A DNA stretch of 64,000 nucleotides. Origin: Streptococcus sanguinis SK355. Its GTDB lineage: Bacteria; Bacillota; Bacilli; Lactobacillales; Streptococcaceae. A program made the translations under genes and the position numbers. Below, piece after piece: positions 1,117-19,406 of the stretch. The notes beneath the pieces are model-generated. The model was not told the origin of the DNA and ran no database searches. It was given only the letters and a program-made list of their open reading frames with translations. The stretch lies in NCBI RefSeq assembly GCF_000212855.1, contig NZ_GL890993.1:528546-592545 (forward strand), in the 5' to 3' direction. The first letter of the stretch is position 1, and every line of letters begins with the position of its first letter.

Positions 1117-1135
1117 TTTTCTTTTCCTATCTATT

Positions 1136-1849
1136 TTATTTGCTGCTGATATAATTTGCTTTTTTATAAGCAAAGCCATATTTGGAGAAAGAGCTAGGAG
1201 ACAGTTGGTAGCGATCCATGATTTCACTCAGCCATAGCGGGCAGGTTTCTGGAGTCTTAACTTCCATGATAACGTGATTGGCTGGCAGGAGATGATCTCC
1301 ATGGCGACCAGCCAAGAGACTCAGATCATAAGGACGGTAGGTAAGGTCGTGATCAAAGGTAATCCGAATCCGCTCATCCTCAATCCCTTTCATCGAATAA
1401 CGATTGTAGCCGATATACATCATAGGCTGAATATTGCCAAAACGCTGGGTTAGCCAAGCCATTTCCTTATCTATCTGAACGTCAGTCAGCTGACTGTAAT
1501 CTCCGTCCAGATAGGCTTCCGCTGTCAGCAAATCTGCTGCAATTCGGCGTTTGCTGACCAGATTCTCTGTCTTTTTCTTGATTTCTAAAAAGACTTGACT
1601 ATCTTCGGTCGGATGCTCTTGATAAGTCCGCAAGCGCACCTTCTCGTCAAAGCAAGGATTTTCCAAGGACTCACGAATGAGCTGATAAGACGGCGTATCG
1701 TAGTAGAGATTGTTAATGGTCGAATAAGCTCGCTCATCCTCCACCAGATAGCCTTCAAACTCTAGCAATAGATCCAGCAAGGTTTCCTTGGAAATGATGT
1801 ATTTGGTTTCAAAGCGCTGAAAATGATTTTGAAAATTTTTTTCTGCCAT
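1136..1849 (-). CDS. VTC-domain protein (polyphosphate polymerase-like)
   Basis: A 237-residue soluble protein matching the VTC domain, the catalytic fold of eukaryotic polyphosphate polymerase. Basic and acidic residues of the triphosphate tunnel are recognisable: FETKYII near residue 13, NNLYYDTPSY near 46, VRLRTY near 72, VFLEIKKK near 86, RRIAA near 101, YNRYSMKG near 148 and IMEVKTPE near 193. No SPX domain is present. Bacterial VTC proteins commonly sit with DUF4956, CotH or Cthe_2159-type genes; here the carbohydrate-binding lipoprotein follows directly. GGGAGAAG precedes the ATG. Polyphosphate synthesis is inferred from family membership only. Confidence 0.8.
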   Translation of the reverse strand: MAEKNFQNHFQRFETKYIISKETLLDLLLEFEGYLVEDERAYSTINNLYYDTPSYQLIRESLENPCFDEKVRLRTYQEHPTEDSQVFLEIKKKTENLVSKRRIAADLLTAEAYLDGDYSQLTDVQIDKEMAWLTQRFGNIQPMMYIGYNRYSMKGIEDERIRITFDHDLTYRPYDLSLLAGRHGDHLLPANHVIMEVKTPETCPLWLSEIMDRYQLSPSSFSKYGFAYKKANYISSK

Positions 1850-1903
1850 GGGCTTCTCCCCTCTCTATCTTTCTTGAATGTAATGCAATTTTAAAGATGA
1901 AAA

Positions 1904-1931
1904 CTTAAAAGAAAGATAAAGAAAACTTAAA
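1904..1931 (-). promoter_or_regulatory. Phased TTTAAG repeats upstream of the VTC gene
   Basis: On the minus strand the sequence reads TTTAAG-N5-TTTATC-N5-TTTAAG, three hexamers at an 11-base period. The known CiaR operator of streptococci is TTTAAG-N5-TTTAAG, and a close match is present at htrA in this window. The middle hexamer departs at two of six positions, so this is a candidate response-regulator site, not a certain CiaR box. No convincing -10 was found at the expected distance. Confidence 0.35.
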
Positions 1932-1964
1932 GAAAACAAAACATCTCCCTTTTCAGGAGATGTT
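1928..1964 (-). terminator. Terminator after the YhgE gene
   Basis: A perfect 9-bp stem (AACATCTCC/GGAGATGTT, 1940-1948 with 1956-1964) is followed on the minus strand by TTTGTTTTC. It ends transcription from the YhgE/Pip gene that stops at 2039. Confidence 0.75.
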
Positions 1965-2038
1965 GATTAGAGAAAAAGTAAAAGAATTACAGATAGACTT
2001 TTCATCTACATTCTTACAGATTCATAAAGGCACAGACC

Positions 2039-4462
2039 CTAAGCTAGCTGTTTTTTATCCGTTCGATAGACCAGAGTACCAAGTGCCATGAAAAGAACTA
2101 AAACAAAAGCAAGGAAGACCACCTGACTACCTATTTGGCCATTCATGGAAATCGTTTGGCGTAAGCCCGATACAGAATAGCTCATTGGCAGCCAAGGGTT
2201 GATAACTTGGAAAATCTTACTAGTCAACTCCAGCGGATAGGTTCCTGCACTAGAAGCCAGCTGTAAAAGCAAGAGAATCAGAGAAGCAAAGGCACCGAGC
2301 TTGCTATCCCAAGTAACCAAAGCGGTTACAAGAGCCATAAAGGTCATGCTGGCTAGTACAATCAAACCAAGGGTTGCCCACTCATGGTTAGCAGATAGGC
2401 CTATCAAGTGCACAGCACCATAGACCAAAACACCCGCCACGACAGAAATGACTCCATTTACCTCTATACGGGCCTTCAGCCAATCTCGTTTCGTCCTAGG
2501 TTCTTGACCCGATGGAAGTGTACTAAAGATGATGTTGGTTGAAATAGCCGCCACAAATAAAGCTACTGAAATCATATAAGGCGCCATCCCAATGCCGTTT
2601 TTCTCTACCTTGTTCTCATCTGTCTTGCTCAGTGTCAGAGGATCTGCCAGAGTTTTTGCATTGTCTTCCTTGGTTGAAACAGCCGACAATTTATCGCCTG
2701 CATCCGCGAGTCCATTAGACAAATCGCTCGTCCCCACAGTAAGTTTAGAGAGATTATCTGTTAAAGCACTGCTGCCATCAGCTAGCTTCCCTGTTCCGCT
2801 CGCTAATTGATTGGTCCCATCCGCTAATTTCCCGAAACTAGAGGTCAATTCTGGCGATTTATCTGTTAATTGGGCTGCCCCGTTTGCTAATTTTGTTGTA
2901 TTTGCTAGCAAATCAGGGTTCTTACTTGCCAAAGCTGATGTTCCCTCAGATAGCTGACCAACTGCATTGGTATAACTTATCACCCCTTGTTCCAATTGTG
3001 TCGCGCCAGTCGTTAGTTTATCATTTAGGGTATCTACACCTGTGACTAGTTGATTGGCTCCTCCGCTTGCTGAACCGAGGCCAGTACTCACCGTTGATAA
3101 GCCATTATAAAGGCCATTGATCATGCTAGCTGCCTGTGGCAGAACTTGATTTGATGCACCTTCTAACTGACTAAGTTTTGTTTGACTAGCGCCTTTTATC
3201 GTTTCAAGAGAAGCCCTCATTGTATCGATTTCTGATAAAATCGCCTGAGTAGATTGATCACTTCCTGCTTGACTAGCACTGACTGCTGCGTCAATCTCAG
3301 CCTTAGCCTCACTAGAAAGGCCTTGATAAGCGCTCGTCCCTTGGACACTTGCCAAAGCTGCGGCCTTGGCGTCTTGATTATTATTGATAATGGCCTGAGC
3401 GGATGCTGCTATGCTAGTCAGCGAAGCTTCAATGCTGTCTGTTGGCACTGCTGAGTCACTTGCTGCAGCTTGAATACTAGCATTCAACTGAGTCAAGCCA
3501 GTTGCCAAATCATTCACGTTTTGCTGATTGTTAGCTAAAGTTGTATCTACCGATGACTTTAATGTAGCCAAGCCAGTGTTCAGATTCGTTACACCTGTCG
3601 ATAAGGCCTGAACTCCATCTCCTGACTGAGTAAGCTGTTGGACTCCACCCAATAAGTCTGCTGATCGACCCGACAGCTGATTTGCACCTTTGGCCACAGT
3701 ACTTACACCATTTGCATAAGTGTTTATCCCGTTTGACAAACTACCCAGTCCAGACGATACTTGTGCAACACTCCCAGTATAAGTCTGTAGTCCTGTATTA
3801 AATTGAGCTGCACCGGACGATAATTTGCTCGTAGCTTGATTCAGAGTTCTTAAGTTATCTGCAATTGTCTGACTTCCTGAACCTAGTTGTTGGCTGCCAG
3901 ATGTTAATTGCTGAGCACCATCAGATGCCTTAACCAATCCCGTTTTTAGATCTCCCATATTCTTAAATATGGCGCTTGTATAAGTATCCGTCACATTTTG
4001 CGCCACCGTCTGCTTCAAAGAAGCCATGGCTGAATCACTCATCTTACCAGCAATAAAACTGTGGCCGCTAGACGTTTGATAGTCAATCTTCATTTGCTGA
4101 GGATTATCGGTCAAAATACTGGCTGCACGTTCAGATAAATCACTTGGAAGCGTCACAACCATGTAGTAATCACCCTTTTCCAAACCATTTTGAGCATCTT
4201 CTTTACTGACAAAGTGAAAATCCAGATTTTTATTTTCCTTGAGGCTGGAAACAACATCCTCACCTATAGACAAGGTCTTGCCACTAGCAGTTACAGCTTT
4301 ATCCTGATTGACAACCGCCACTGGCAAGTCCGATACCTTTCCATACGGATCCCACATGGAGCTCAAGAAAATAACATTATACAAGGCAGGAATCAAAGAG
4401 ACTCCTAACATCACAATGATAAAAGTCGGCTTTTTTAAAATGGCTTTCCATTCTCTTAACAT
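2039..4462 (-). CDS. YhgE/Pip-family membrane protein
   Basis: An 807-residue protein of the YhgE/Pip (phage infection protein) family, related to ABC-2 type exporters and to Lactococcus Pip. One N-terminal membrane segment (about residues 13-32) is followed by a roughly 570-residue extracellular region and then about five C-terminal membrane segments (from about residue 628 to the end). The extracellular region is dominated by repeats of the pattern L-x-x-G-x-x-x-L-x-x-G (LTSGSQQLGSGSQ, LADGTNQLASGTGKLADGS), probably coiled coil. AGGAGG precedes the ATG. The promoter carries palindromes typical of TetR operators, so it may be repressed by a TetR protein, perhaps the one at 5764. The physiological role is not known. 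Confidence 0.85.
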   Translation of the reverse strand: MLREWKAILKKPTFIIVMLGVSLIPALYNVIFLSSMWDPYGKVSDLPVAVVNQDKAVTASGKTLSIGEDVVSSLKENKNLDFHFVSKEDAQNGLEKGDYYMVVTLPSDLSERAASILTDNPQQMKIDYQTSSGHSFIAGKMSDSAMASLKQTVAQNVTDTYTSAIFKNMGDLKTGLVKASDGAQQLTSGSQQLGSGSQTIADNLRTLNQATSKLSSGAAQFNTGLQTYTGSVAQVSSGLGSLSNGINTYANGVSTVAKGANQLSGRSADLLGGVQQLTQSGDGVQALSTGVTNLNTGLATLKSSVDTTLANNQQNVNDLATGLTQLNASIQAAASDSAVPTDSIEASLTSIAASAQAIINNNQDAKAAALASVQGTSAYQGLSSEAKAEIDAAVSASQAGSDQSTQAILSEIDTMRASLETIKGASQTKLSQLEGASNQVLPQAASMINGLYNGLSTVSTGLGSASGGANQLVTGVDTLNDKLTTGATQLEQGVISYTNAVGQLSEGTSALASKNPDLLANTTKLANGAAQLTDKSPELTSSFGKLADGTNQLASGTGKLADGSSALTDNLSKLTVGTSDLSNGLADAGDKLSAVSTKEDNAKTLADPLTLSKTDENKVEKNGIGMAPYMISVALFVAAISTNIIFSTLPSGQEPRTKRDWLKARIEVNGVISVVAGVLVYGAVHLIGLSANHEWATLGLIVLASMTFMALVTALVTWDSKLGAFASLILLLLQLASSAGTYPLELTSKIFQVINPWLPMSYSVSGLRQTISMNGQIGSQVVFLAFVLVLFMALGTLVYRTDKKQLA

Positions 4463-4478
4463 GTCTACCTCCTAAAAA

Positions 4479-4575
4479 TTATACATAGTGTCCAAATTTC
4501 GATAAAATTGATTATACACCAATCGAAAATTATTACAAGTTTATTCTTTAAAAATTAGACATCGTGTCTAATTTT
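4479..4575 (-). promoter_or_regulatory. YhgE promoter with two related operator palindromes
   Basis: A -35 TTGTAA (4538-4533) and a -10 TATAAT (4516-4511) lie 16 bases apart on the minus strand. Upstream is a perfect inverted repeat with 11-base arms (AAAATTAGACA at 4551-4561, TGTCTAATTTT at 4565-4575). A degenerate second copy, core ATTATACATAGTGTCC, lies at about 4479-4500, just downstream of the start point. This is the layout of a TetR-type repressor bound at two sites around a promoter. The repressor is not proven. Confidence 0.6.
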
Positions 4576-4836
4576 GTTTAAAAAGATTGTAGGGAAGTGG
4601 AATAAGTTAGCCCTAGTGTCTTTAATCCCTGAATAATCTGTAATCAAAAGGTATTCTTCCATAGGTAGGGACACAGAAAATCAGTATTATGTTAGAATGA
4701 TAAGTTAGGTAAATGGAGTCAAGCATCGAGCTCTTAACTTGACGATACGGTTCCATGTGAAACACTGCTGTCAGCAGACGTCTCACACCACAGCAGCTCA
4801 AGTCAGATTGAGCACAGTAAAGAAAGGTTTTAGACA
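4576..4836. other. Intergenic stretch without a recognisable gene
   Basis: About 260 bases between the YhgE promoter and the broken lipoprotein gene. It contains a third, weak TTAG-N5-GTGTCT element near 4607 and inverted segments (CTGCTGT near 4767, ACAGCAG near 4791) that could fold in the lipoprotein leader. No gene with a start and a ribosome site was found. A clear promoter was not identified. Confidence 0.4.
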
Positions 4837-5519
4837 ATGAAAAAAGAACACCATTTAGCTTATTTGCTCTAGTTGCAGCACTATTTCTTCTGTCAGCCTG
4901 CCGTTTCCTTGTACCATCTAACTCAGATTCTACCACTAACTCTTCTAATTCAGATAAATCAGGAAAAAAAGTTAGTTTAAAGGATTCCTCAAGCTCATCA
5001 AAGCAATCTTCCAAAAGTAAAAGCAGCTCCTCTAGCAGCAGTAGTTCTTCCAGAAGTTCTAGTAAGGATATAGAAAAAACCACAGATGGTCTTCCAGAAG
5101 ATGCCGATCATGCTAAGAAAGATAAGATTTATGCGACTGGCAATGCCAAGGTTTATTACCAATCCTATGAAACAGGCGGTTTTGAAGCTCAAATTCCTGA
5201 ATTTAAAGGATATACCCAAGAAAAAGTTAAAAGTATTTTGGGTGAGCCAGAAAAAGTAAGCACCGACCTCGCTTCTGAATATGAAGCCTTCCAAGACAAA
5301 GAATTAGAAAATCTGAAGAGGCTGGTTCAGGATCAAAAAATAAGCAAAGAACAGGCGCGTGCTTTCTTAGCGGGTGCAGTTGATAATGCTCAAGCATCAA
5401 GATTACAAAACACCTACATAATTTACTCTTATAAAAATGAGCAAATTTCTATTATCTTCTCGCAAGAGGGCGAGCTACTTTACGTCACTCCTGACCCCGA
5501 CTATCTCTACTTTAAATAA
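4837..5519 (+). pseudogene. Lipoprotein (DUF4947-like) with frameshift in the poly-A tract of its signal peptide
   Basis: The ATG at 4837 follows AAAGGTTTTAGACA and is followed by six A (4840-4845). Read as written, the frame stops after 11 codons at TAG. With seven A it would read MKKRTPFSLFALVAALFLLSAC, a textbook lipoprotein signal with lipobox LSAC, and stay open to 5519 (about 227 residues). After the Cys comes a Ser/Lys-rich linker, then a conserved-looking domain with YATGNAKVYYQSYE, FKGYTQEKVKSILGEPEKV and a C-terminus YVTPDPDYLYFK, resembling streptococcal DUF4947 lipoproteins. No other in-frame start lies between the upstream stop at 4818 and the domain. The remainder of the frame is intact, which argues for a recent event, phase variation, slippage or a sequencing error. 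Confidence 0.65.
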
Positions 5520-5528
5520 TGCTCAAAA

Positions 5529-5571
5529 CGAAGGCCGAGACTTTACTTTAAGTCTCAGCTTCGCTATTTTT
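5529..5571 (+). terminator. Terminator after the lipoprotein gene
   Basis: Stem CGAAG...CTTCG with inner GAGACTT/AAGTCTC, separated by a small internal loop, then CTATTTTTAC. It follows the stop codon at 5519 by ten bases. Confidence 0.7.
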
Positions 5572-5647
5572 ACTGCTTTTTGCCAGTCAATCAAGCCTAA
5601 TTAAGATAAAATTTTAACTATCTATGCTTAATTCCGGAATTTAACTC

Positions 5648-5676
5648 TTTTCCACTGGAAAAACATTTGATATAAT
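5648..5676 (+). promoter_or_regulatory. Promoter of the TetR gene with an overlapping palindrome
   Basis: A -10 TATAAT lies at 5671-5676. A perfect 15-bp palindrome, TTTTCCACTGGAAAA (5648-5662), covers the -35 position. Its placement suits autorepression by the downstream TetR protein. It does not resemble the palindromes at the YhgE promoter, so the link between this regulator and YhgE is uncertain. Confidence 0.5.
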
Positions 5677-5763
5677 GGTACGTGGAGAAAAAGAAAAAGT
5701 AGTTTGCTATGATAGCTATTAGCTTGAAGAGCAGACTGAGGCTTAGCCTCAAAGGGAGATTTT

Positions 5764-6294
5764 ATGTTAGAAAGCAATAAGCGCCGAAAAACCAAGGCTA
5801 TTATTGAAAGAGCCATGGTTACACTACTGCATAAGCAGTCCTTCGATCATATCACTACTGTCCAGCTAGCTCAAGCTGCTGGTATCAGCCGTAGTAGTTT
5901 TTATACTCACTACAAGGACAAGTACGATATGATTGAACGTTATCAGCAAAACCTCTTTCATCAGTTGGGGTATATTTTTGAGAACAATCAAGAAGATATC
6001 AAAACTGCGATTACGGAGGTCTTTCAGTTCCTCCAGCAAGAGCCGCTCTTAGCCGCCCTTTTGACGGAAAACGGTACGAAAGAGATTCAAAATTTCTTGC
6101 GCCACAAGCTGCAGGTGATGCTGGCAGATAACCTACAGGACCGTTTTAGCAATCGCATTTACAATCATTTCGAAAAAGAATACAGCCGGGTCTTTCTTGC
6201 CAATGCCTTCTTTGGTGTCTGCCAGATGTGGATTGCTAGAGGAAAAAAAGAAAGTCCTGAACAAATAGCAGAATTTCTTTTGAAAATGCTGTAA
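5764..6294 (+). CDS. TetR/AcrR-family transcriptional regulator
   Basis: A 176-residue one-domain regulator. The N-terminal helix-turn-helix is clear: RRKTKAIIERAMVTLL, then ITTVQLAQAAGISRSSFYTHYKDKYDMIE (about residues 32-60). The C-terminal ligand domain is divergent, as usual, and its ligand is not recognisable. The gene stands alone, with AAGGGAG before the ATG. It could control itself, the YhgE gene on its left, or the KAS III operon that ends 100 bases to its right in convergent orientation. Confidence 0.85.
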   Translation: MLESNKRRKTKAIIERAMVTLLHKQSFDHITTVQLAQAAGISRSSFYTHYKDKYDMIERYQQNLFHQLGYIFENNQEDIKTAITEVFQFLQQEPLLAALLTENGTKEIQNFLRHKLQVMLADNLQDRFSNRIYNHFEKEYSRVFLANAFFGVCQMWIARGKKESPEQIAEFLLKML

Positions 6295-6397
6295 GAAGTT
6301 GCTCGAATCCAATGGATCCTGGCTCTTCTGATATTTTGAAAAATTAAACAGGGTGTATAAAACCTCTTTTGGTTCTGTACACCCTATTTTTATTGTA

Positions 6398-7342
6398 TTA
6401 TAATTTCATAGCCAACATATTGACTGTCATACCAGCTGCTGTTCCCATCAGAGCGATGGTATCCCCTTCTCTGACTAGGTTGCGCTCCAAAGCATAACAG
6501 AGAGAAAAGGGCACTGCCACTGACACCATATTACCATAGTCTTGCACAATATTAAGGTATTTATCATCAGGTATACCCAAGCTGCGCATGACCATTGGCA
6601 GAGCACGACTCGCCTGATGCGGAATGATATAATCCAAATCAGATAGGCTGAGGCCGCTCTTTTCTTTAAATTCTTTAAACATTTCCGGAATTTTTCTGGC
6701 AGAAAGCAAGAGAATCTTCTTGCCATTCATGTCAAACATGTAGTGAGTTTTGGTAGCATCCGAATACTCCTTAGGCTGAAAAGATGTCAAACCACCGCGA
6801 ATCTCTGTATCATGAGCTCCCTCAGACCAGGTCCGCTGCATGCTGGAGATGACCCCTCTTTCTTCCTCTGTTGCTTCAAAAATCAAAGCTGCTGCTCCGT
6901 CACTGAACAACTCAAAACTTTCCTTCTGATTGGGATTGAGACCCAAACTTCCAACCTCACTGGACACGATGAGGATCCTCTGATACTCACCAGCCTCCAA
7001 CAAATGAGACATGAGACTTAAAGCTGAGATAAAGCTGGTGCAGGTCGTATTGATATCCATGGCTGGAATAGACAAGCCCTTAGCCACCAACTCATGAATC
7101 AGGGCAGCAGTGCAGGGAATAGGCTGAACGCCCACCGCACTGGCCGATACGATGCAGTCAATATCTTTGATTGTCAAGCCCGCTTGCTGCAGGGCTTTTT
7201 CAATCGCCTTAACCGCCATGGAAAGCTGGGTTTCTTCATTTTCCACCACTCGATAACGGGTCTGATCCTTAAAAGTCACGGTATTTCTAGGTAGATGCGT
7301 ACCATAACCAACAATCTTTATATGATTCTTTACTGCAGTCAT
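6398..7342 (-). CDS. Ketoacyl synthase III-like (FabH/OleA-like) condensing enzyme
   Basis: A 314-residue thiolase-fold protein of the KAS III superfamily. The catalytic triad is intact: Cys101 in NTTCTSF, His242 in IIPHQAS and Asn271 in YGNMVSVAVP. It therefore should make a carbon-carbon bond by decarboxylative or non-decarboxylative Claisen condensation of acyl thioesters. The position away from the fatty acid synthesis genes, and its operon with a ligase, an MBL hydrolase and an SDR, argue against a housekeeping FabH and for a dedicated pathway, as with OleA. AAGGAG precedes the ATG. It is the last gene of the operon; a hairpin (GGCAGTT/AACTGCC, 7377-7395) lies in the 100-base gap before it. 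Confidence 0.8.
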   Translation of the reverse strand: MTAVKNHIKIVGYGTHLPRNTVTFKDQTRYRVVENEETQLSMAVKAIEKALQQAGLTIKDIDCIVSASAVGVQPIPCTAALIHELVAKGLSIPAMDINTTCTSFISALSLMSHLLEAGEYQRILIVSSEVGSLGLNPNQKESFELFSDGAAALIFEATEEERGVISSMQRTWSEGAHDTEIRGGLTSFQPKEYSDATKTHYMFDMNGKKILLLSARKIPEMFKEFKEKSGLSLSDLDYIIPHQASRALPMVMRSLGIPDDKYLNIVQDYGNMVSVAVPFSLCYALERNLVREGDTIALMGTAAGMTVNMLAMKL

Positions 7343-7442
7343 ATTAAACTCCTTCTTGTCAGACTTGGGGCTGCTCGGCAGTTGGGTAAACTGCCAAAGC
7401 GCTTCAGCCTCTGATTCATATATTTTTCCACTTGGGGCATTC

Positions 7443-8702
7443 TTAAGTCCGATAGATACGTTTCAACTTACGACTTCTGTCCCGCTGATAATCTTCAAAA
7501 GAAATAGCCGGCATAAGAAAGCTTTTATCAGTCGCTAAGTTTTGAAACTGCTGGATAATCTCGTCTTCTCGCTGCTGACTACGATGTTCGATAGCAATGG
7601 TCAGCGAATGGTCCTGTTTCTGAGCGACTTGGTATTCTCCAATCCCATCAACTAAGAGCAGACAACGGCGGATAAAGTCTGGAAAGACCTCCACCGACTG
7701 ACCTGCAGCATTTTCAAACACGAAAATATCATCCGAGCGCCCCTCAATCCTATCAATCCGTGTAAAGACCGAACCGCAGGGGCAAGGTTCAGGATTTTCC
7801 ACCAAGATATCATTCAGCTCATATTGAAAAATTGGCTGAGAAGTCCGCTTGAAATCCGTAATTATTGGATAAAAGCGTCTATCATCCAAGTAGCACTTTT
7901 TTACATGGACAATATCTTCATTTAGATGAAGATTCCCGTGGATACAAGTGCAGGCTAGAAAGCCCTCGGTCGCTTGGTAGACCTGATCCACCTTTTTTAG
8001 ACCAAATCCTTCTTGAATCCTCTGCCGATCTGGCTCTTCTAAAATCTCTGCCACCGATACGACTTTGCTAGGGGCAATTTTCAAATTTCCTGCCTGGACT
8101 TGTTTAGCCAGCTCCAAGAGCATTGATGCTGGCGCTACCAAAATCGTTGGCTGGTAAGCATTCAAACGCTCTACATGCTCTTCGGCTCCCTGAAAAGTAT
8201 CAAAATACTCCAGAGAAATCAAGCCTGAATTGACAGTCTGATAGAGCTGGTTATCTGCCCGAAGAAAAAAGGCTATTTTGTGCCCAAAGAGTTTACCTTT
8301 AGGCAGCATCTTGGCCAAGATGGCTGCCGCCCACATGCTGCGCTCCTTTTCAGTGGTGACAAACAAGCCTCGGTGACCAGATGTCCCTGAAGACAAGCCG
8401 ACAGCAATCTCTCCTATCATGGGACTAAAATCACGTGTCCGCTCGCTCTCCAGGGCAAAGGCTAGCAACTCATCTCGATTCAGTCCCTGAGTATTGAGCT
8501 CATTGAAATGCTCCATCATAAAGGCTTTATTCATCTTAAAATCTGCTGGAATACCTGATTTGAAATAAGGCGATTCCTGCTGCAGAAATTCCCGATAGAT
8601 TGCTAAATCCTTGACTTGATAGCGTTCCAGAGCCTGTCGATCTTTAAATCGATGCCCCCAGCGCATGACGCTAAAGGTTTTTAGAAATGTTCCTAGTTTC
8701 AT
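7443..8702 (-). CDS. Adenylate-forming enzyme (CoF synthetase/PaaK-like)
   Basis: About 419 residues from the chosen ATG at 8702. It resembles the F390-synthetase/phenylacetate-CoA-ligase branch of adenylate-forming enzymes. Visible motifs are the P-loop SSGTSG (104-109), YQATEG (242-247), TDFKR (282-286) and GRSDD (321-325). Cys pairs CTC (251-253) and CPC (307-309) could bind zinc. The expected chemistry is activation of a carboxylate as acyl-AMP, perhaps with transfer to a thiol. An ATG at 8735 would add 11 residues but has no ribosome site. The gene overlaps the MBL gene by 32 bases, so expression is coupled. The substrate is unknown; a fatty or beta-hydroxy acid is inferred from the neighbours. 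Confidence 0.75.
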   Translation of the reverse strand: MKLGTFLKTFSVMRWGHRFKDRQALERYQVKDLAIYREFLQQESPYFKSGIPADFKMNKAFMMEHFNELNTQGLNRDELLAFALESERTRDFSPMIGEIAVGLSSGTSGHRGLFVTTEKERSMWAAAILAKMLPKGKLFGHKIAFFLRADNQLYQTVNSGLISLEYFDTFQGAEEHVERLNAYQPTILVAPASMLLELAKQVQAGNLKIAPSKVVSVAEILEEPDRQRIQEGFGLKKVDQVYQATEGFLACTCIHGNLHLNEDIVHVKKCYLDDRRFYPIITDFKRTSQPIFQYELNDILVENPEPCPCGSVFTRIDRIEGRSDDIFVFENAAGQSVEVFPDFIRRCLLLVDGIGEYQVAQKQDHSLTIAIEHRSQQREDEIIQQFQNLATDKSFLMPAISFEDYQRDRSRKLKRIYRT

Positions 8703-9498
8703 ACAAAATCTGTTCCACTCTCTCAGCCGGATCATGACTGACTAGCACCTGATAACCGACAGCAAGCAACTGCCGCAGCAAGGCCACACCAGCCATGTAT
8801 TCTTCCTTGTTATCCTGGATTAGTGACGGCAAGAAACGCATCTGCTCGGTATAAGGCAACAGATCCACGCCCCAGCACAAATCAGCTCCGATAAACAGAT
8901 GATAATCTGGCAAAAAGAGACACGCTTGACCAGCGGCATGCCCATCAACTGAGGCCAGATATATACTGCCATCCCCAAACAAATCAACTGTCTTGCGATA
9001 GAGGAATTCTGCTTGGACCTGCTGAGGTTCCACCACTTCCAACCGACTCTCAAAATCCTGCGGAAGAAATTCCTTGAAAATCAAATCCTTAAGCTTGGCA
9101 TGCTGATAAGTTTTGAAAACGGTCTTGGTCAGAATGAAGCGGGCCTTGGGAAAGAAAGCGGCTCCGCCAATGTGATCTGGATGCAAGTGCGACAAGATGA
9201 CATAAGAAATATCTTCTGGCGCAATTCCTTTTTGCTCAAGCAGCCGATCTACACGCTCCTCTTCTGACATATCAACAGGCGTTCCCAGACCATAAAGCCA
9301 GTATTTGAGCTTGGGCTTCAGAATAGCTGGAGAATAGCCAGTGTCATAGAGAATATAGCCTTTCTCACGATGCTTCAAAAGGAAAACACCAGCCGGAAAA
9401 ATCATTTTTTTCTTGGCAACTCCCTTAAACATCTGTTGCAAGTGACTGCTGCAGCGCCCAGGCTGAAGATACTCAATTTTCTCGATAATGTTGGACAT
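8671..9498 (-). CDS. Metallo-beta-lactamase-fold hydrolase (lactonase-like)
   Basis: 275 residues from ATG 9498, which follows AAGGG at a suitable distance; an upstream GTG at 9516 is possible but less likely. The zinc-binding motif HLHPDH (His104, His106, Asp108, His109) is intact, with a third-ligand DGHAAGQ, a bridging GADLCWG and a late VSHDPAE. The arrangement is that of N-acyl homoserine lactonase-type and related hydrolases. It overlaps the SDR gene before it and the ligase gene after it, so it is a firm operon member. In this context it may open a lactone or hydrolyse a thioester made by the other enzymes; this is inference. Confidence 0.8.
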   Translation of the reverse strand: MSNIIEKIEYLQPGRCSSHLQQMFKGVAKKKMIFPAGVFLLKHREKGYILYDTGYSPAILKPKLKYWLYGLGTPVDMSEEERVDRLLEQKGIAPEDISYVILSHLHPDHIGGAAFFPKARFILTKTVFKTYQHAKLKDLIFKEFLPQDFESRLEVVEPQQVQAEFLYRKTVDLFGDGSIYLASVDGHAAGQACLFLPDYHLFIGADLCWGVDLLPYTEQMRFLPSLIQDNKEEYMAGVALLRQLLAVGYQVLVSHDPAERVEQILYETRNISKNL

Positions 9499-10450
9499 AT
9501 TTTGCAATCCCTTCACTGATTGTCAACTTGGGTTGATAGCCCAAATCTCTTACTGCTGCTGATATATCCAGCGTTTGGCTGTAACGCATTAAGTAATAGG
9601 TGTAAAGAGTCAGAGGTGGCTCTTTTTCAATGTTAAAAAAGCGATAAAAGCTTTCAAATCCTTGTGCCAGAAGACCTAGAAAAGCAGCAGGCAACTTAAC
9701 ATAACGTTTACGAACCTGTAAACCATCCAAAGCTTCATCCAGCATATCCCTGAAACTACGGGATTCTCCGTTGGTAATGTTGTAAACTTGTCCTTGCGCT
9801 TCTGGAATCTCTAAAGCCAGACGAACAGCCAAGGCTACATTTTCCACACAGGTCATATCCATCATTTGCTGGCCATTTCTGATAAGTGGAATCGCCAGTT
9901 TTTGACTTAAGCGCAGAATCCTAGGAAAGATACTGGTATCTCCAATACCAAAAAGCCCTCTAGGGCGCAAGATAACCGATGGAACTTGAGGGTAGCTTCG
10001 AACAATCCGCTCAGCCATGAGCTTGCTTTTTATATAGAAATTCAGCTCATTTTCCTGAGGAGCAGCCTCTTCTTTGATAGCCAATTGGTCACGCGCCGCA
10101 GCATAAACACTCGGAGAGGAAATATAGACCAGTCTTTGCACTCCAAAATGTCGGCAGGCTTCCATAACCAGCTTGGTCCCTACTACATTGGTTTGATAAA
10201 ACTGCTCCCAGGGTCCCCAAATCGTTGAGAGAGCACCAGCATGTACCACTGCATCCACTCCTTCGCAGGCTGCAAAAATCTCCTCTTCTCTAGTAAAATC
10301 ACCAGCAAAAAACTCTACTAAAGGACCCTCTAACTGCCGACCAGCCTTCAGATTACGGCCAAAAGCCCGCACCTGATAGCCTTGTTCAGCTAGCTCTTCA
10401 ACAACATACTTTCCTAGAAAGCCAGTCGCTCCTGTCACTAGAACCTTCAT
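9473..10450 (-). CDS. Extended SDR oxidoreductase (3-beta-HSD/OleD-like)
   Basis: 325 residues from ATG 10450, which has AAAGGAG six bases upstream. The NAD(P) motif GATGFLG is at residues 7-13, and the active-site pair is Tyr139 and Lys143 (YIKSK). Segments STIWGPWEQFYQTNVVGTK, LVYISSPSVY and MMDMTCVENVALAV are the pattern of 3-beta-hydroxysteroid dehydrogenase-like reductases, including OleD, which reduces 2-alkyl-3-keto acids in bacterial olefin synthesis. It heads a tight operon of four genes. A TATAAT-like -10 is at 10498-10493 on the minus strand, without a clear -35. Reduction of the condensation product of the KAS III enzyme is a reasonable inference. Confidence 0.8.
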   Translation of the reverse strand: MKVLVTGATGFLGKYVVEELAEQGYQVRAFGRNLKAGRQLEGPLVEFFAGDFTREEEIFAACEGVDAVVHAGALSTIWGPWEQFYQTNVVGTKLVMEACRHFGVQRLVYISSPSVYAAARDQLAIKEEAAPQENELNFYIKSKLMAERIVRSYPQVPSVILRPRGLFGIGDTSIFPRILRLSQKLAIPLIRNGQQMMDMTCVENVALAVRLALEIPEAQGQVYNITNGESRSFRDMLDEALDGLQVRKRYVKLPAAFLGLLAQGFESFYRFFNIEKEPPLTLYTYYLMRYSQTLDISAAVRDLGYQPKLTISEGIAKYVQHYREN

Positions 10451-10662
10451 TGCTACTCCTTTCATACAATTTTCTGTTTCTGTCTTGTCCCCATTATACA
10501 CCATTTCAGCAAATCTTCCGTAAAAAAGCTGGAAAAAATCTTTACAGAGTGTCTCAGCTGATTGGATAGGAGCAGAAAAAATAAGATAATTCCCAAAACA
10601 GCTGTCTCAATCCATTGACATTTTTTAAGTTGGAAATAGCTCTAATTAATTCATTGAGAGTA

Positions 10663-10691
10663 TTAAAAAAGAAGCCGGGAAACCGGCTTCT
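10663..10691 (-). terminator. Terminator after rpsD
   Basis: A perfect stem GAAGCCGG/CCGGCTTC (10671-10678 with 10683-10690) with a GAAA-type loop. It is followed on the minus strand by TTTTTTAATA, just after the rpsD stop. Confidence 0.9.
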
Positions 10692-10704
10692 GAACAAATA
10701 CAAA

Positions 10705-11316
10705 TTAAAGCATTTTGTTGTAGAATTCAACGATAAGAGCTTCGTTGATTTCTGGGTTGATTTCATCGCGCTCTGGAAGGCGAGTCAATGAACCTTCTAA
10801 TTTTTCAGCATCAAATGATACGAATGCTGGACGTCCAAGAGTTGCTTCAACAGCTTCAAGGATTGCTGGAACTTTCAATGATTTCTCACGAACTGAGATC
10901 ACTTGACCTGGAGTTACGCGGTATGATGGGATATCAACGCGTTTGCCGTCAACAAGGATGTGACCGTGGTTTACGAATTGACGAGCTTGACGACGAGTAG
11001 TCGCAAGACCAAGACGGTAAACAACGTTATCCAAGCGACGCTCCAAGAGAAGCATGAAGTTGAAACCAAGGATTCCTTCTTTGATTTTTGAAGCTTGAAC
11101 GAACAAGTTACGGAATTGTTTTTCACCTACACCGTAAGTGAAACGAAGTTTTTGCTTTTCAGCCAATTGCAAACCATATTCAGACAATTTGCTGCGGTTG
11201 TTTGGTCCATGTTGACCAGGTACATAGTTGCGGCGAGCCAATTCTTTCCCTGTACCAGTAAGAGAAAGACCCAAACGACGAGCTTGTTTCCAAGATGGTC
11301 CTGTATAACGTGACAT
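10705..11316 (-). CDS. rpsD: 30S ribosomal protein S4
   Basis: 203 residues, the normal streptococcal length, starting [16 protein letters not shown] at ATG 11316 with GGGAGGA upstream. S4 nucleates assembly of the small subunit by binding 16S rRNA. The C-terminal S4 RNA-binding domain is visible ([27 protein letters not shown], about residues 94-120). The gene is monocistronic, with its own promoter, a long leader and a terminator. In Firmicutes S4 usually represses its own translation through the leader. Confidence 0.97.
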
Positions 11317-11501
11317 AAAAATGTCCTCCCGTAAAATTTTTTTGAGGAAATAGTCACTTAGAAAGCCCTGATTCGTGCAGAACATTTTCGCCCAAACAGC
11401 TAAGGCTACTTTTATAGCTGATGTTCTGTTGACGAGCTCCATGCTTTCCTGCTGCTATTTCACACAAGGGCTATTGTACCATGAATAAAGTCAAAAGTAA
11501 A
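11317..11501 (-). promoter_or_regulatory. rpsD promoter and structured leader (candidate S4 autoregulatory RNA)
   Basis: The promoter is TTTACT (11501-11496), 17 bases, TACAAT (11478-11473). The transcript would have a leader of about 150 bases. It contains an 8-bp stem CAGAACAT/ATGTTCTG enclosing a second stem CAGCTA/TAGCTG (11397-11402 with 11415-11420). Nested stems and the location before rpsD fit a Firmicute S4 leader; the pseudoknot was not resolved by eye. Confidence 0.55.
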
Positions 11502-11578
11502 GGGACTTATGCAAAAAATCAAGCCAAAAGGCTTGATTAAAGTTATTTCTAGAAAGTAAAGGAATTCAGGCAGTTGCT

Positions 11579-12301
11579 TCACACTCCCAAAATCTTCAAA
11601 ATCTCCTGCTTGTATCGTAGCTTCTGCAATTCCTTATCCTCGTTGTCTAACCAGACCAGCTGGAGATCTGCAACAATTTGCCCAGGCCGATTTTTCAGAA
11701 TATAGATACGGTCACTGAGAGCCAGAGCTTCCTCGATGCTATGAGTGATAAGGAGAGTTGTCAGACCCAGCCTACGATGAATATCCAGATACCAAGCGTG
11801 TAGCTCCATCTTGGTCAGCTCATCCAAAGCACTAAAGGCCTCGTCTAGAAGAAATAGCTTGTGACCGAACATATAGGTTCGTAGCAGAGCCACGCGCTGC
11901 CGCATCCCCCCGCTCAGTTCATGTGGATACTTGTCTGCCACATCAAAAAGCCCGAACTCCTTCAAAATCTGACTTGCCTGCTCCGTCGCTTCCTTTTTGG
12001 ATACCTTTCGGATTAAGAGAGGCAAGATGACATTCCCCAGCACCGTCTTGTGCTCCAGCAGCAAGTCCTTCTGTAGCATGTAGCTCACGCGACCCTTGGG
12101 ATTTTCCTGTCCGTCTAGGACAATCCTACCCGTCTGGACCTCCAAAATCCCCGCAATCAGATTAAAGAGGGTCGTTTTCCCGACTCCACTAGGCCCCAAA
12201 ATCGCTACAACCTGGCCTGCTTCTACCTCTAGGCTGATGTCTTTCAAAATCTGCTGCTCATCGTAAGCATAGCTTACATTTTCAAGTTTAATTTCTGTCA
12301 T
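11579..12301 (-). CDS. thiZ: ABC transporter ATPase, thiamine-precursor uptake
   Basis: 240 residues of a SsuB/TauB-like ATPase with Walker A GPSGVGKTT (about 34-42), signature LSGGMRQR and Walker B LFLLDEAFSALDE. It energises the permease and binding protein encoded just before it. Its ATG overlaps the stop of the binding-protein gene as TAATG, so translation is coupled. Last gene of the TPP-riboswitch operon, so uptake of a thiamine pyrimidine precursor is likely. Confidence 0.85.
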   Translation of the reverse strand: MTEIKLENVSYAYDEQQILKDISLEVEAGQVVAILGPSGVGKTTLFNLIAGILEVQTGRIVLDGQENPKGRVSYMLQKDLLLEHKTVLGNVILPLLIRKVSKKEATEQASQILKEFGLFDVADKYPHELSGGMRQRVALLRTYMFGHKLFLLDEAFSALDELTKMELHAWYLDIHRRLGLTTLLITHSIEEALALSDRIYILKNRPGQIVADLQLVWLDNEDKELQKLRYKQEILKILGV

Positions 12302-13299
12302 TATTTTATATAATCGTTGCTGAATCCCTTGTCCCTCAAGTCATTGTCCACGATACCTTTATCCTTGGCCCATTTGTAAAAGGCATTCCAGCGGCTAGCC
12401 TCAAACTGACCCCACTTGTCCTTATCCGATGCATATTGCTCGGACAAATATTTTTGGGAATCCAAGACAAAGTCACGCTTGCTTTTCAACTCTGGCGCAT
12501 GCTTGATTAAAATATCCGCTGCTTCTTCAGGGTGCTCCATAGCATATTGATAGCCCTTCTTGATAGCCTGCAGGACTTTTTTCGCCTCTTCCGGATTCTT
12601 CTTCAGGTAGTCATTATTGGCAATGATGACTGGAGAATAGTAGTCAAACTCCTTTACATAGTCCTTCATATAAAAGAAATTTGTATCCATGCCCTGAGTT
12701 TGAGCCATGATGCCGTCCCAGCCATGATAAATCCACGCTGCATCAAACAAGCCATTTTCAATCGGCGTAATTGAGTTGGAATCGTTGTTGGGAACTTTTT
12801 CCACTTCATCAAACTGACCTCCTTGGCTTTCAACCAAGGTTTTGAGCATGCCCAGCTCCACCGGATCATTCCAGGTGCCATATTTCTTGCCAGCCAGATC
12901 CTTAGGACTTGTAATCCCTGCAGATTTTTTGGAAATAATGCCCGAAGTATTATGCTCTACAATAGCCGCGACAGCTGTGATTTCTGCGCCCTTATCCAGT
13001 TTTTTAGCCATAGAGTCCTGGAAATAAATACCAAAAGGTGCCTTGCCATTGATAATCAGATCCGAACTGCTATCTTCAGGCGGCAACTTGATATCCACAT
13101 CCACGCCTGCTTCCTTGAAGTAGCCCTTTTCCTGAGCCACATAAAGGCCGGTATGGTTGGTGTTAGGTGACCAGTCTAGGATAAAATCAATCTTTTTATC
13201 CTTCTTAGCTGACTTCGAGCCTGACTGACTGCAGGCCGCTAGACTAAAGATAGATACGGCAGCCAAACCTGCCAGCAGCATTTTGTAACTTTTTTTCAT
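12301..13299 (-). CDS. thiY: THI5/NMT1-like substrate-binding lipoprotein
   Basis: 332 residues from ATG 13299 (AGAGGAT upstream). The signal MKKSYKMLLAGLAAVS ends in lipobox LAAC, giving a membrane-anchored binding protein. The body begins IDFILDWSPNTNHTGLYVA and contains GKKYGTWNDPVELGM, typical of the NMT1/THI5 family that binds formylaminopyrimidine or HMP. The sequence context (TPP riboswitch upstream, permease and ATPase in the same operon) supports a thiamine-precursor role rather than sulfonate or nitrate uptake. Confidence 0.87.
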   Translation of the reverse strand: MKKSYKMLLAGLAAVSIFSLAACSQSGSKSAKKDKKIDFILDWSPNTNHTGLYVAQEKGYFKEAGVDVDIKLPPEDSSSDLIINGKAPFGIYFQDSMAKKLDKGAEITAVAAIVEHNTSGIISKKSAGITSPKDLAGKKYGTWNDPVELGMLKTLVESQGGQFDEVEKVPNNDSNSITPIENGLFDAAWIYHGWDGIMAQTQGMDTNFFYMKDYVKEFDYYSPVIIANNDYLKKNPEEAKKVLQAIKKGYQYAMEHPEEAADILIKHAPELKSKRDFVLDSQKYLSEQYASDKDKWGQFEASRWNAFYKWAKDKGIVDNDLRDKGFSNDYIK

Positions 13300-13343
13300 T
13301 ATTATCCTCTTTTCTTTCTTCGGAAAATAGCAGAGCTGAGCTC

Positions 13344-14096
13344 CTATTTCCACTTAATGACATATTTTTCACTGACAGCCACCAGCTTCATCCCCAGAAG
13401 ACTGATAACCGAAACCAATATGATAATGGCAAACATGGTATCGTACTGGAAAAGTTTCTTAGACTGAATCATATAAACACCCAAGCCTTCAAAACCGCCC
13501 AGCCATTCGGAAACCACGGTCGTGATAAAGGCATAAGATACACTGACGCGCAAGCCCGCATAGAAATAAGGCAAGCTAGCTGGAATCTTAAAATGCCAGA
13601 GAATCTGCCAGCGATTGGCCTGCATAAGCTCAAAGAGAGTCAAGGTGTCTCTGTCACAATGCCGAAAACCATCCAGAATACTGACGATAATCGGAAAAGT
13701 CGTCGTCAGAATAATGAGCACAATCTTGGGCAAAATCCCATAACCCAGCCAGAGAACCAGAATTGGCGCCAAAGCAATGGTCGGAATAGTCTGCACCACG
13801 ACCATCATGGGGTAGATCAGATCATTGAGCCAGCTCATGCTGTCCATGAGTATAGCTAGTATACAAGCCAAGATGACGCCCAAGACTAAACCCAGCAAGG
13901 CTACTTTTAAGGTCGCCCAGCTATGACTTGCTAGAAATCCGGCATCTCTGATAAAAGCCTGACCGATTTCCAGAGGTGTCGGCAGGATAAACTTGGGCAA
14001 GAGCTTGAGCCAGCCCATGACCTGCCAGATGACAAGTACACCCAGCATCCCTAAGAGACCGATTTGCTGCCGCATCAGCCTTTGTAGTGCTTTCAT
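13344..14096 (-). CDS. thiX: ABC transporter permease, thiamine-precursor uptake
   Basis: A 250-residue BPD-type inner membrane permease with about six hydrophobic segments. The EAA loop is seen around FELMQANRWQILWHFKIPASLPYFYAGLRVSVS (about residues 153-187). First gene after the TPP riboswitch and its terminator; GGAGG precedes the ATG. It forms the channel of the transporter with the ATPase and lipoprotein that follow. Confidence 0.87.
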   Translation of the reverse strand: MKALQRLMRQQIGLLGMLGVLVIWQVMGWLKLLPKFILPTPLEIGQAFIRDAGFLASHSWATLKVALLGLVLGVILACILAILMDSMSWLNDLIYPMMVVVQTIPTIALAPILVLWLGYGILPKIVLIILTTTFPIIVSILDGFRHCDRDTLTLFELMQANRWQILWHFKIPASLPYFYAGLRVSVSYAFITTVVSEWLGGFEGLGVYMIQSKKLFQYDTMFAIIILVSVISLLGMKLVAVSEKYVIKWK

Positions 14097-14167
14097 TGAT
14101 TAGTTTTCCTCCCTTCCTGCATTTTAGCACTGCAATTCTTCAAGATATCACCATTCGATAAAGATGA

Positions 14168-14203
14168 TAAAAGAAAAGGCCTTTTCCATATATGGAAAAG
14201 GCG
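14168..14203 (-). terminator. Riboswitch expression-platform terminator
   Basis: A perfect 24-base palindrome spans 14179-14202 (arms GCCTTTTCCAT and ATGGAAAAGGC). It is followed on the minus strand by CTTTTCTTTTATC. It lies between the TPP aptamer and the permease gene, so it should form when TPP is bound and stop transcription of the operon. Confidence 0.85.
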
Positions 14204-14222
14204 CACAAATACCACATTTTTC

Positions 14223-14308
14223 GGTATGTTTCCTACGCTGGCATTACCCAGATCAGGTGCGGTCGAAGCTTACACTTCCTCTCAGACTGTACACAGACTC
14301 CCATATAT
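14223..14308 (-). promoter_or_regulatory. TPP riboswitch (THI element)
   Basis: The minus strand has both conserved halves of the thi box in order: CTGAGAGGAAG, then ACCTGATCTGGGTAATGCC followed by AGCGTAGGAA. Closing pairing between TATG near the 5' end and CATA near the 3' end is visible. The downstream terminator predicts that thiamine pyrophosphate turns the three transporter genes off. Confidence 0.95.
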
Positions 14309-14314
14309 AGGACT

Positions 14315-14343
14315 ATGATAGCGCAATCATCAGCAAATGTCAA
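14315..14343 (-). promoter_or_regulatory. Promoter of the TPP-riboswitch operon
   Basis: TTGACA (14343-14338), a 17-base spacer and TATCAT (14320-14315) on the minus strand. The predicted start is at the 5' edge of the riboswitch. Confidence 0.75.
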
Positions 14344-14398
14344 GGTTGGAGCTTGGGCTCACTCCTTTTCAACTATAAGCGAAGCGAACTATCATCAA

Positions 14399-15022
14399 TC
14401 AGTCAAACTTACCTTTCGTAGCCAGCAAAGTCTCCAAAGCTTTGATATTCTCTGTCTCGCTTGTGGATAAGATGGTTTCAAAGCCCAGTTCAGCTGCCGT
14501 ATCTAAGTTAGCCTGAATATCATCAATAAAGACGGACTCCACTGGATCCAAACCATACTTTTTCAAGAGCTTTTGGTAAATCTCTGCTTCCGGCTTGACG
14601 ACCCCGACCTCTGAGGAAAGGATATACCCCGACAGCAGTGGGTAAATGGGCAACAAACCAGCTTTTTCAATATGATAAAAAATCTCACAAGTGGTTGACA
14701 AGATATAGATTCGATAGCCCTGGTCAGCCCATAGCCAAATTCTTTCCTGTAAATCACTGTAAACATGCACAACCTCATACCAATGATAAAAGATATTCTT
14801 AACGGCAGAATGATAGGAAACGTCCAGCTGAGCCAAGACTTCCTCACAAGCTTCTTTCAAACTCAGCTCTCCCTTGTCCGTCTGATGCCAGACACCCGAC
14901 CCAAAAATGGCCTGTTTAAGGACCTGCCGCCGCTCTTTCTCAGGTTCAAAATAGGTCAAGATTTTCTCAGAATTCCATTCAATCAGAACATTGCCCAAAT
15001 CAAAAACCAAATTTTTAATCAT
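14399..15022 (-). CDS. HAD-family phosphatase (YihX-like)
   Basis: 207 residues from ATG 15022 (AGGTGG upstream). Motif I is FDLGNVLIEW, motif II YILSTTCE and motifs III/IV around VVKPEAEIYQKLLKKYGL and VFIDDIQANLDTA. The Asn after DLG and the cap pattern fit the subfamily of YihX-type sugar-phosphate or FMN phosphatases. It lies between veg and the thiamine-precursor operon; the substrate is not known. Confidence 0.8.
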   Translation of the reverse strand: MIKNLVFDLGNVLIEWNSEKILTYFEPEKERRQVLKQAIFGSGVWHQTDKGELSLKEACEEVLAQLDVSYHSAVKNIFYHWYEVVHVYSDLQERIWLWADQGYRIYILSTTCEIFYHIEKAGLLPIYPLLSGYILSSEVGVVKPEAEIYQKLLKKYGLDPVESVFIDDIQANLDTAAELGFETILSTSETENIKALETLLATKGKFD

Positions 15023-15118
15023 GATGACCACCTGTTTTCTTTGCTTATCATCCTCTATATAAGTCGATTTGACTGAAGAATTGCTTCAAATATAAGTAAA
15101 AAGGCCCACTGGACCTTT

Positions 15119-15394
15119 CTATTCATCAAAATAACGGATGAGGTTCTTTTCTGTCAAAATGTCAGAGTAGGTATAAGACTCCACATAAGTATTAGAGATT
15201 TCCCCTGGCTGACCGCCTTCATTGGAATATTCCACGATAAACAAAGACGGATAGACTTCAATCAGACGGCCTTGCTTGCTTTTTTGGCGCTTACGACCGT
15301 TTTCCAGCGTCATCTCGACGATTTGTCCTTCATGCGCCTTGATATCTTCTTTGATTTTTTTCATTTTTGCCACATCTGTAAATGCATCACTCAT
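15119..15394 (-). CDS. veg: Veg family protein
   Basis: 91 residues, the normal size of this small Sm-like beta-barrel protein. The family pattern is clear: DVAKMKKIKEDIKAHEGQIVEMTLENGRKR, then GRLIEVYPSLFIVEY. In Bacillus subtilis Veg stimulates biofilm matrix expression; in streptococci the role is not established. It starts two bases after the dnaB stop, so it is in the rplI-dnaB operon. Confidence 0.9.
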   Translation of the reverse strand: MSDAFTDVAKMKKIKEDIKAHEGQIVEMTLENGRKRQKSKQGRLIEVYPSLFIVEYSNEGGQPGEISNTYVESYTYSDILTEKNLIRYFDE

Positions 15395-15396
15395 CT

Positions 15397-16752
15397 TTAT
15401 TCATCCTCTCTTTTGGAAATACTTGAGAATTTATTATACTCTTTCTGGAAAATTAACTCTACTGTACCACGCGCTCCGCTCCGGTTTTTCTCAATAATGA
15501 CTTCAACCTTGTTGTTGGGAATGCCTTCTTCCTCCTCACCAGCGCGATCATAATAATCATCCCGGTAAAGGAAAGCAACGATATCCGCATCCTGCTCAAT
15601 GGAACCTGATTCCCGAATATCAGACAGCACTGGTCTCTTATCCTGCCGCTGTTCCACGCCACGCGAGAGCTGACTCAGCGCAATGACCGGCACCTTGAGC
15701 TCCTTCGCCAAGATTTTCAACTGCCGGGAAATTTCCGAAACCTCTTGCTGGCGATTTTCACGGCCAGTTCCTGTAATCAGCTGCAGATAGTCAATCAAGA
15801 CCAGCCCTAGATTGCCCGTTTCCTGAGCCAGTTTTCGAGCCCGCGAGCGAATCTCTGTAATCCGAATCCCTGGTGTATCATCGATATAAATACTAGCGTT
15901 AGCCAGATTAGCTGTCGCAATGGTATATTTTTGCCACTCTTCATCTGTCAGTTGCCCCGTACGAATGGAATGAGAATTAATTACCCCTTCTGAAGCCAGC
16001 ATCCGGTCCACCAAGCTCTCCGCCCCCATTTCCAGAGAGAAAATGGCCACAGTCTTATCCAGCTTAGTTCCGATATTCTGAGCGATATTAAGGGCAAAGG
16101 CTGTCTTTCCGACCGCTGGCCGAGCCGCCAGAATGATTAATTCTTCCTCATGCAGACCAGTCGTCATCTTGTCCAGCTCACGGTAGCCAGTCGCAATCCC
16201 AGTGATATCTGATGTCTGCAGAGACCGGGCCTCCAGATTGCTAAAGTTAAGATTCAGCACATCACGGATATTTTTAAAGCCACTGCGGTTGGCTGTTTCG
16301 CTGACATCAATCAGTGCTTTTTCAGCTCCGGCAATAATTTCCTCTGACAAACGGTCACCATCGTAGGCTTGATTGATAGACTCTGTCAGACGCGAAATCA
16401 GCCGCCTTAAAATAGCCTTTTCTGCAACGATTTTAGCATAGTATTCCGCATTGGCAGATGTTGGCACGGAATTGACCACTTCCACCAAGTAGCTGAGACC
16501 GCCGATATTCTGCAAGTCACCCTGGCTGTCCAAAATGTTACGAACAGTCGTTGCATCAATGGCATCGCCGCGGTCAGCCAAGTCAATCATAGCCTTGAAA
16601 ATCAAGCGATTGGCATACTTAAAGAAATCAGCAGGCTCGATATACTCACGAACAAAGACCAGTTTGCTCTCATCAATGAAAATGGCTCCTAAAACGGACT
16701 GCTCCGCTAAAATATCCTGAGGCTGAGCTCGGAGTTCATCAATCTCTGCCAT
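15397..16752 (-). CDS. dnaB: Replicative DNA helicase
   Basis: 451 residues. The N-terminal DnaB domain (AEQSVLGAIFIDESKL) is followed by a RecA-like ATPase domain with Walker A ARPAVGKTAFALN (about residues 209-221), Walker B VLIDYLQLI and the arginine-rich loop ENRQQEVSEISRQLK. The hexamer unwinds DNA at the fork (called DnaC in Bacillus). It follows rplI by 26 bases, the standard gdpP-rplI-dnaB order of Firmicutes. Confidence 0.97.
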   Translation of the reverse strand: MAEIDELRAQPQDILAEQSVLGAIFIDESKLVFVREYIEPADFFKYANRLIFKAMIDLADRGDAIDATTVRNILDSQGDLQNIGGLSYLVEVVNSVPTSANAEYYAKIVAEKAILRRLISRLTESINQAYDGDRLSEEIIAGAEKALIDVSETANRSGFKNIRDVLNLNFSNLEARSLQTSDITGIATGYRELDKMTTGLHEEELIILAARPAVGKTAFALNIAQNIGTKLDKTVAIFSLEMGAESLVDRMLASEGVINSHSIRTGQLTDEEWQKYTIATANLANASIYIDDTPGIRITEIRSRARKLAQETGNLGLVLIDYLQLITGTGRENRQQEVSEISRQLKILAKELKVPVIALSQLSRGVEQRQDKRPVLSDIRESGSIEQDADIVAFLYRDDYYDRAGEEEEGIPNNKVEVIIEKNRSGARGTVELIFQKEYNKFSSISKREDE

Positions 16753-16778
16753 CGGTAAATCCTTCCTTCAAATCACTA

Positions 16779-19374: not shown

Positions 19375-19406
19375 CTTCCCAAAGGAAACTAAGCCTTTTA
19401 CAAGAG

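Follow-up and report, generated by a model that had tools for sequence, protein, structure and literature searches.

The 64,000-nucleotide stretch of Streptococcus sanguinis SK355 analysed here (the window; contig NZ_GL890993.1, positions 528,546 to 592,545) carries a minus-strand operon for a short-chain dehydrogenase/reductase (SDR), a metallo-beta-lactamase-fold hydrolase (MBL), an adenylate-forming ligase (LIG) and a condensing enzyme of the ketoacyl-acyl carrier protein synthase III (KAS III) type, here called KAS. These four genes are read as half of a set of eight that is unbroken in four loci from other Lactobacillales but divided between two places in this genome, and the chances are about even that the set makes a glycosylated long-chain acyl lipid. 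The gene content, gene order, conservation, catalytic residues, the split into two operons and the predicted folds of KAS and LIG are established by the analysis.

In the four Lactobacillales loci (L121, L123, L124 and L092), genes for a second SDR (SDR2), a family 21-like glycosyltransferase (GT21), a 215-amino-acid protein (x215) and a GT1-type glycosyltransferase (GT1) directly precede the core SDR gene. None of them adjoins the window operon. A search of the same genome with the GT1 of S. infantis-type loci gave a single match, 1.37 Mb from the window operon, and the SDR2-GT21-x215-GT1 operon is found at L180:9811-13617 (C1:1,907,811-1,911,617), its genes ordered as in the relatives. A total of 19 other streptococcal genomes have x215; the second operon is complete and in order in all 10 of those read, with one TAG in x215 of G038. 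Among 197 Streptococcus genomes, LIG is present in 18 of the 20 that have x215, as against 33 of the 177 others, a statistic inflated by kinship. Since the same four genes precede the core elsewhere, a second operon is present in the genome and x215 is associated with LIG, the window operon is read as half of an eight-gene pathway. The earlier note on this DNA, made from the window only, therefore missed the other half and its two glycosyltransferases.

The GT21 homologues of L098 and L121 score 69.9 and 82.6 bits on the Glyco_transf_21 model (cut-off 21.7), and the S. sanguinis protein is 44% and 51% identical to them; GT21 also matches HpnI weakly, far below the HpnI cut-off. GT1 resembles the macrolide glycosyltransferases (TIGR01426), with 55 to 64 bits in two relatives against a cut-off of 260. 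No Pfam or NCBIfam match of note was found for x215 in the relatives scanned, and its Ser128, Asp178 and His197 are invariant in nine aligned rows. Other lineages have other partners. A GT1-type gene precedes SDR in S. oralis- and S. infantis-type loci, and an ATP-grasp gene is in the cluster in all 14 loci from Bacilli outside the Lactobacillales (L159-L170, L177 and L178), nine of which also have a GNAT gene. A search for the GNAT partner in the genome of the window, run without a positive control, gave no match. In E. coli, genes for a PAP2 protein, a fatty-acid hydroxylase and a fatty-acid desaturase come after the core, and its partners there, as in Fusobacterium and Rhizobium, belong to lipid-related families.

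The four core genes occur together in Streptococcus, other Lactobacillales, Paenibacillus-type Bacilli, Fusobacterium, Bacteroidota and Proteobacteria, including E. coli. LIG exceeds its family cut-off in 51 of the 197 Streptococcus genomes, 49 of 299 Bacilli genomes, 9 of 398 genomes drawn phylum-wide and 6 of 247 from the phylum of a Bacteroidales metagenome-assembled genome. Adjacent matches to all four genes are present in each of the 16 named Streptococcus loci and in each of the 30 further loci read from the 51 genomes with a match; some strains are in both sets, and in the 30 SDR is truncated where the stretch ends. Of 31 additional loci (L121-L131 and L159-L178), 30 have all four. In the plasmid collection, KAS and SDR matches lie no more than 20 kb from each of the 25 best LIG matches (H1-H25), H36 (Novosphingobium) also has both adjacent, and the remaining listed LIG matches have no listed KAS match. 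The hosts of the 25 are Fusobacterium vincentii, Pontibacillus, Paenibacillus, Burkholderia, Paraburkholderia, E. coli, Ketogulonicigenium, Paracoccus, Pseudomonas, Rhizobium, Shinella and Roseateles. This co-occurrence across streptococcal, plasmid and further loci rules out a chance cluster.

On the P. amygdali megaplasmid pMPPla107 (L103), LIG is displaced by 15 kb from the other three core genes, and a similar spread is seen on pBASL58 (L102). In E. coli EC958 (ST131, L106) a seven-gene cluster lies between narI and tRNA-Tyr/purU. Of 5,426 complete E. coli genomes, 672 have a match to this cluster, which in 671 spans 80% or more of its length; in NZ_CP107128, which has two places, the better covers 70%.

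The window operon itself (Table 1) is intact. Its gene order is SDR, MBL, LIG and KAS, with overlaps at SDR/MBL and MBL/LIG and a gap of 100 nt between LIG and KAS. Named S. sanguinis strains match the four proteins at 94-99%. In seven named strains all four genes are kept without internal stops, and the ratios of non-synonymous to synonymous substitution (dN/dS) against the window are 0.01-0.31; the genes are under purifying selection. The Pfam and NCBIfam classes of the four open reading frames (ORFs) agree with the KAS III, adenylate-forming enzyme, metallo-beta-lactamase hydrolase and SDR named in the earlier note. The close or overlapping same-strand genes it described, and the motifs it listed (KAS Cys101, His242 and Asn271, SSGTSG, HLHPDH, GATGFLG and YxxxK), are all present, and the operon it described is conserved as a unit in the streptococcal loci and in the distant lineages.

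The KAS residues Cys101, His242 and Asn271 are invariant in an alignment of 25 rows from Firmicutes, Fusobacterium and Proteobacteria. KAS scores 162.9 bits on the FabH model (cut-off 292.1) and a separate FabH is encoded at C1:98200-99162. In a maximum-likelihood tree of 29 proteins, which takes in 21 of the 25 aligned KAS and leaves out three LstB rows, the 21 cluster KAS and one Priestia enzyme form a clade (support 96/94), with four FabH-type proteins (98/93) and three OleA-type proteins (100/100) apart from it. The sub-cut-off score, the separate FabH and the distinct clade rule out a housekeeping FabH, in keeping with the distinction drawn earlier, and because a FabH is present elsewhere the four genes are not housekeeping genes. 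With a profile made from the KAS alignment, 295 Lactobacillales genomes gave 28 matches of at least 327 bits, the others among the matches listed lying at or below about 238. A viral fold search with KAS returned generic ketosynthases only.

Both by profile and in predicted fold, KAS is nearest to MxnB and CorB, the closest solved structures, with which it shares the Cys-His-Asn triad and an aliphatic residue at the place of the OleA glutamate. However, MxnB and CorB act on modular polyketide synthase chains while the cluster KAS sits with SDR, MBL and ligase genes, and the streptococcal KAS has an 18-residue gap in its N-terminal part. Two side observations concern KAS. On a Priestia megaterium plasmid (L114:2872-4186) genes for an acyl carrier protein and an MMPL transporter come after that of a KAS III of the same clade, with no SDR, MBL or LIG annotated in that stretch. 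In S. oralis DD15 (L019, copy L044) KAS reads in two frames, and the operon may therefore be broken in that strain.

LIG scores 547.4 bits on TIGR02304 ('F390 synthetase-related'; cut-off 251.9), with no Pfam match. Its Ser115, Gly117-Thr-Ser-Gly120, Tyr305, Asp309 and Lys423 are invariant in 23 rows, and Ser116 is Thr in some. The predicted structure has the PaaK fold and matches PaaK, NatL2 and ClxA. The assignment in the earlier note to adenylate-forming enzymes of the PaaK/CoF type holds. In the open-access literature no characterised member of TIGR02304 was found, nor any paper under the ligase name or the cluster composition. Relatives above the TIGR02304 cut-off (L085, L088 and L176) and lower-scoring ones (L089-L091 and L097) occur without an adjacent KAS; in L085 and L088 the ligase relative is followed by a protein of about 405 amino acids, which in L088 has no NCBIfam match. 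A LIG tree including three such KAS-less relatives is poorly resolved.

In MBL the HxHxDH motif at 110-115 and His193, Asp212 and His261 are invariant in 20 rows, and all seven metal-ligand residues (His110, 112, 115, 193 and 261, Asp114 and 212) are kept in each. These are shared with the AiiA/AttM N-acyl-homoserine lactonases, which are also the best PDB sequence matches; the MBL hydrolase of the earlier note is confirmed. MBL differs from them in scoring far below the curated lactonase cut-offs (at best 79.3 bits, cut-off 390) and in standing beside the three other core genes in the loci read.

The LIG fold and the KAS profile have a bearing on a pathway resembling that of the Pseudomonas quinolone signal (PQS), in which the ligase would activate an aromatic acid, a PqsD-like KAS III would extend it, MBL would serve as a PqsE-like thioesterase and SDR would reduce the product. 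The entries matched by the LIG model have titles naming aryl ligands, and the KAS profile reaches PqsD at 175 bits. However, the MBL profile is nearer to lactonases (94 bits) than to PqsE (29 bits), and such a pathway does not fit the lipid-related partners in E. coli, Fusobacterium and Rhizobium. We regard it as unlikely.

The SDR brings in the olefin (Ole) and lipstatin systems. Its best curated model is that of OleD (NF042422), on which it scores 209.6 bits, below the cut-off of 580 but comparable to two SDRs of the LstD type from lipstatin-like clusters (222.6 and 213.0 bits, also below cut-off), and it is about 30% identical to three LstD-type SDRs. Tyr139 and Lys143 are invariant in 21 rows, and GATGFLG varies in part. 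Three loci on Streptomyces and Rhodococcus plasmids (L118, L119 and L120) are lipstatin-like clusters, with genes for a KAS III-type enzyme, a second LstB-like enzyme, an OleC-type ligase, an SDR, a non-ribosomal peptide synthetase and a formyltransferase. As in oleACD and lstA-D, the operon encodes a KAS III-family enzyme, an OleD-like SDR and an adenylate-forming enzyme together, with accessory enzymes adjoining. On this model KAS would carry out a head-to-head condensation of two fatty acyl chains, SDR would give a 2-alkyl-3-hydroxy acid, LIG would close a beta-lactone in the role of OleC and MBL would open or process it in the role of OleB.

The other Ole components speak against such a scheme. 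The catalytic base of OleA is given as Glu117, followed by Pro, in the excerpted text of PMC7064751; in that of PMC4578411 its counterpart in PpyS is E105, and MxnB and CorB carry Val at this place. In all 47 cluster KAS (46 ORFs and the window, two loci occurring twice) the position is Ile or Leu before an invariant Pro76 (Ile75 in the window), and in the reference alignment it is Ile or Leu in 21 of 21 cluster KAS and Glu in the three OleA-type and three LstB rows. The cluster KAS also form a clade apart from the OleA-type enzymes. A profile of 23 LIG sequences finds none of three OleC-type proteins at E<=10, blastp gives E values of 2.5 or worse, and no OleC model is among the seven NCBIfam hits. 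There is no OleB alpha/beta hydrolase among the four genes, where MBL stands instead, and the core occurs in Firmicutes, one of two phyla, with Bacteroidetes, for which the excerpted survey PMC7158056 gives no ole clusters. The missing glutamate, the lack of significant LIG-OleC similarity and the lack of OleB rule out strict OleABCD equivalence, and beta-lactone formation by this route is also improbable. The Ole-like logic of the earlier note therefore holds for the OleD-like SDR and for the adenylate-forming enzyme beside KAS, and fails for the Ole family proper; the operon is real and conserved, and Ole-like in its SDR and overall logic. The note's idea of a lipid product is probably right.

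Synthesis of an alpha-pyrone or other small secreted signal, in which two beta-ketoacyl chains would be joined as by MxnB and CorB, the MBL lactonase would tune the signal and GT1 would inactivate or export it, draws on the nearest relatives of KAS, MBL and GT1, but is very unlikely, as it leaves the GT21, hydroxylase, desaturase and ATP-grasp/GNAT partners unexplained and makes the ligase and SDR superfluous, since MxnB needs no other enzyme to turn two beta-ketoacyl chains into the pyrone (PMC5724707, excerpted text).

For the glycosylated acyl lipid, the reactions, the product and the joint action of the two operons are predicted from sequence. By FabH/MxnB chemistry, without the OleA glutamate, KAS would condense an acyl thioester with a malonyl- or beta-ketoacyl-thioester, and the beta-keto group so formed would be reduced to a hydroxyl by SDR. 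Hydrolysis of the thioester, or of a lactone, by MBL would then yield a free hydroxy acid, which LIG would adenylate with ATP and transfer to CoA or to a hydroxyl or amine acceptor. Through the second operon (SDR2, GT21, x215 and the GT1-type protein) another ketone would be reduced and sugars attached. Elsewhere the core has different neighbours: an ATP-grasp and a GNAT gene in some lineages, and genes for a PAP2 phosphatase with a fatty-acid hydroxylase and a desaturase in others.

Several observations weigh against this pathway. S. oralis-type loci have only GT1 beside the core, and x215 was not found in such genomes (for example G019), while in two of the 20 genomes with x215 (G134 and G191) the second operon is complete and LIG is absent; the two halves are therefore not obligate partners. 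Where the entry title of a PaaK-fold enzyme names a ligand, it is an aromatic acid or a small hydroxy acid, in line with an aryl product. The annotated records read show no acyl carrier protein next to the core; in the unannotated loci ORF calling did not extend below 70-80 amino acids, and a carrier protein may have escaped notice there. KAS stands alone in Paracoccus sp. TOH, and the Priestia KAS, which has its own acyl carrier protein, falls inside the cluster clade. The best model for SDR2 of L123 is a mycolate reductase at 141 bits (cut-off 380), hardly above generic SDR models, and the GT1 scores are likewise far below their cut-offs.

In a wider reading, tenable at somewhat less than even chances, the operons belong to an undescribed lipid class with a portable core of KAS III, SDR, MBL and PaaK-fold ligase, lineage-specific head-group enzymes and, in S. 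sanguinis, a pathway split over two unlinked operons. For the head group, streptococci, enterococci and fusobacteria would use one or two glycosyltransferases, Paenibacillus-type Bacilli an ATP-grasp protein alone or with GNAT, and E. coli, including ST131, a hydroxylase and a desaturase.

Table 1. The window operon and its neighbouring features (positions in the window)
Feature	Position	Strand	Description
SDR	9473-10450	minus	325 aa; extended SDR (Epimerase/3Beta_HSD), OleD-like; first gene of the operon
MBL	8671-9516	minus	metallo-beta-lactamase-fold hydrolase, N-acyl-homoserine-lactonase-like; GTG start, likely true start internal ATG 9498
LIG	7443-8735	minus	adenylate-forming, TIGR02304 (F390 synthetase-related), PaaK fold in model; ATG start, likely true start ATG 8702, used by many relatives
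KAS	6398-7342	minus	314 aa; KAS III-type condensing enzyme nearest MxnB/CorB
Terminator-like stem	10670-10691	minus	3' of rpsD, between rpsD and the operon; pattern match only
TetR-family regulator gene	5764-6294	plus	convergent with the 3' end of the operon; adjoins it in S. sanguinis loci and L094

Terminator-like patterns occur at seven sites in the region, compared with 6.3 expected from shuffled sequence, and Rfam at gathering scores found nothing in positions 1-20000 of the window.

If the proposed pathway is correct, common oral bacteria of humans would have in common with enterococci and some E. coli a lipid pathway, so far uncharacterised, in which the enzymatic core is fixed and the decorating enzymes can be exchanged. 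The logic of KAS III, OleD-type and adenylating enzymes would then reach beyond beta-lactones and olefins, and TIGR02304 would gain its first function. It would also provide a defined gene set open to deletion and lipid analysis.
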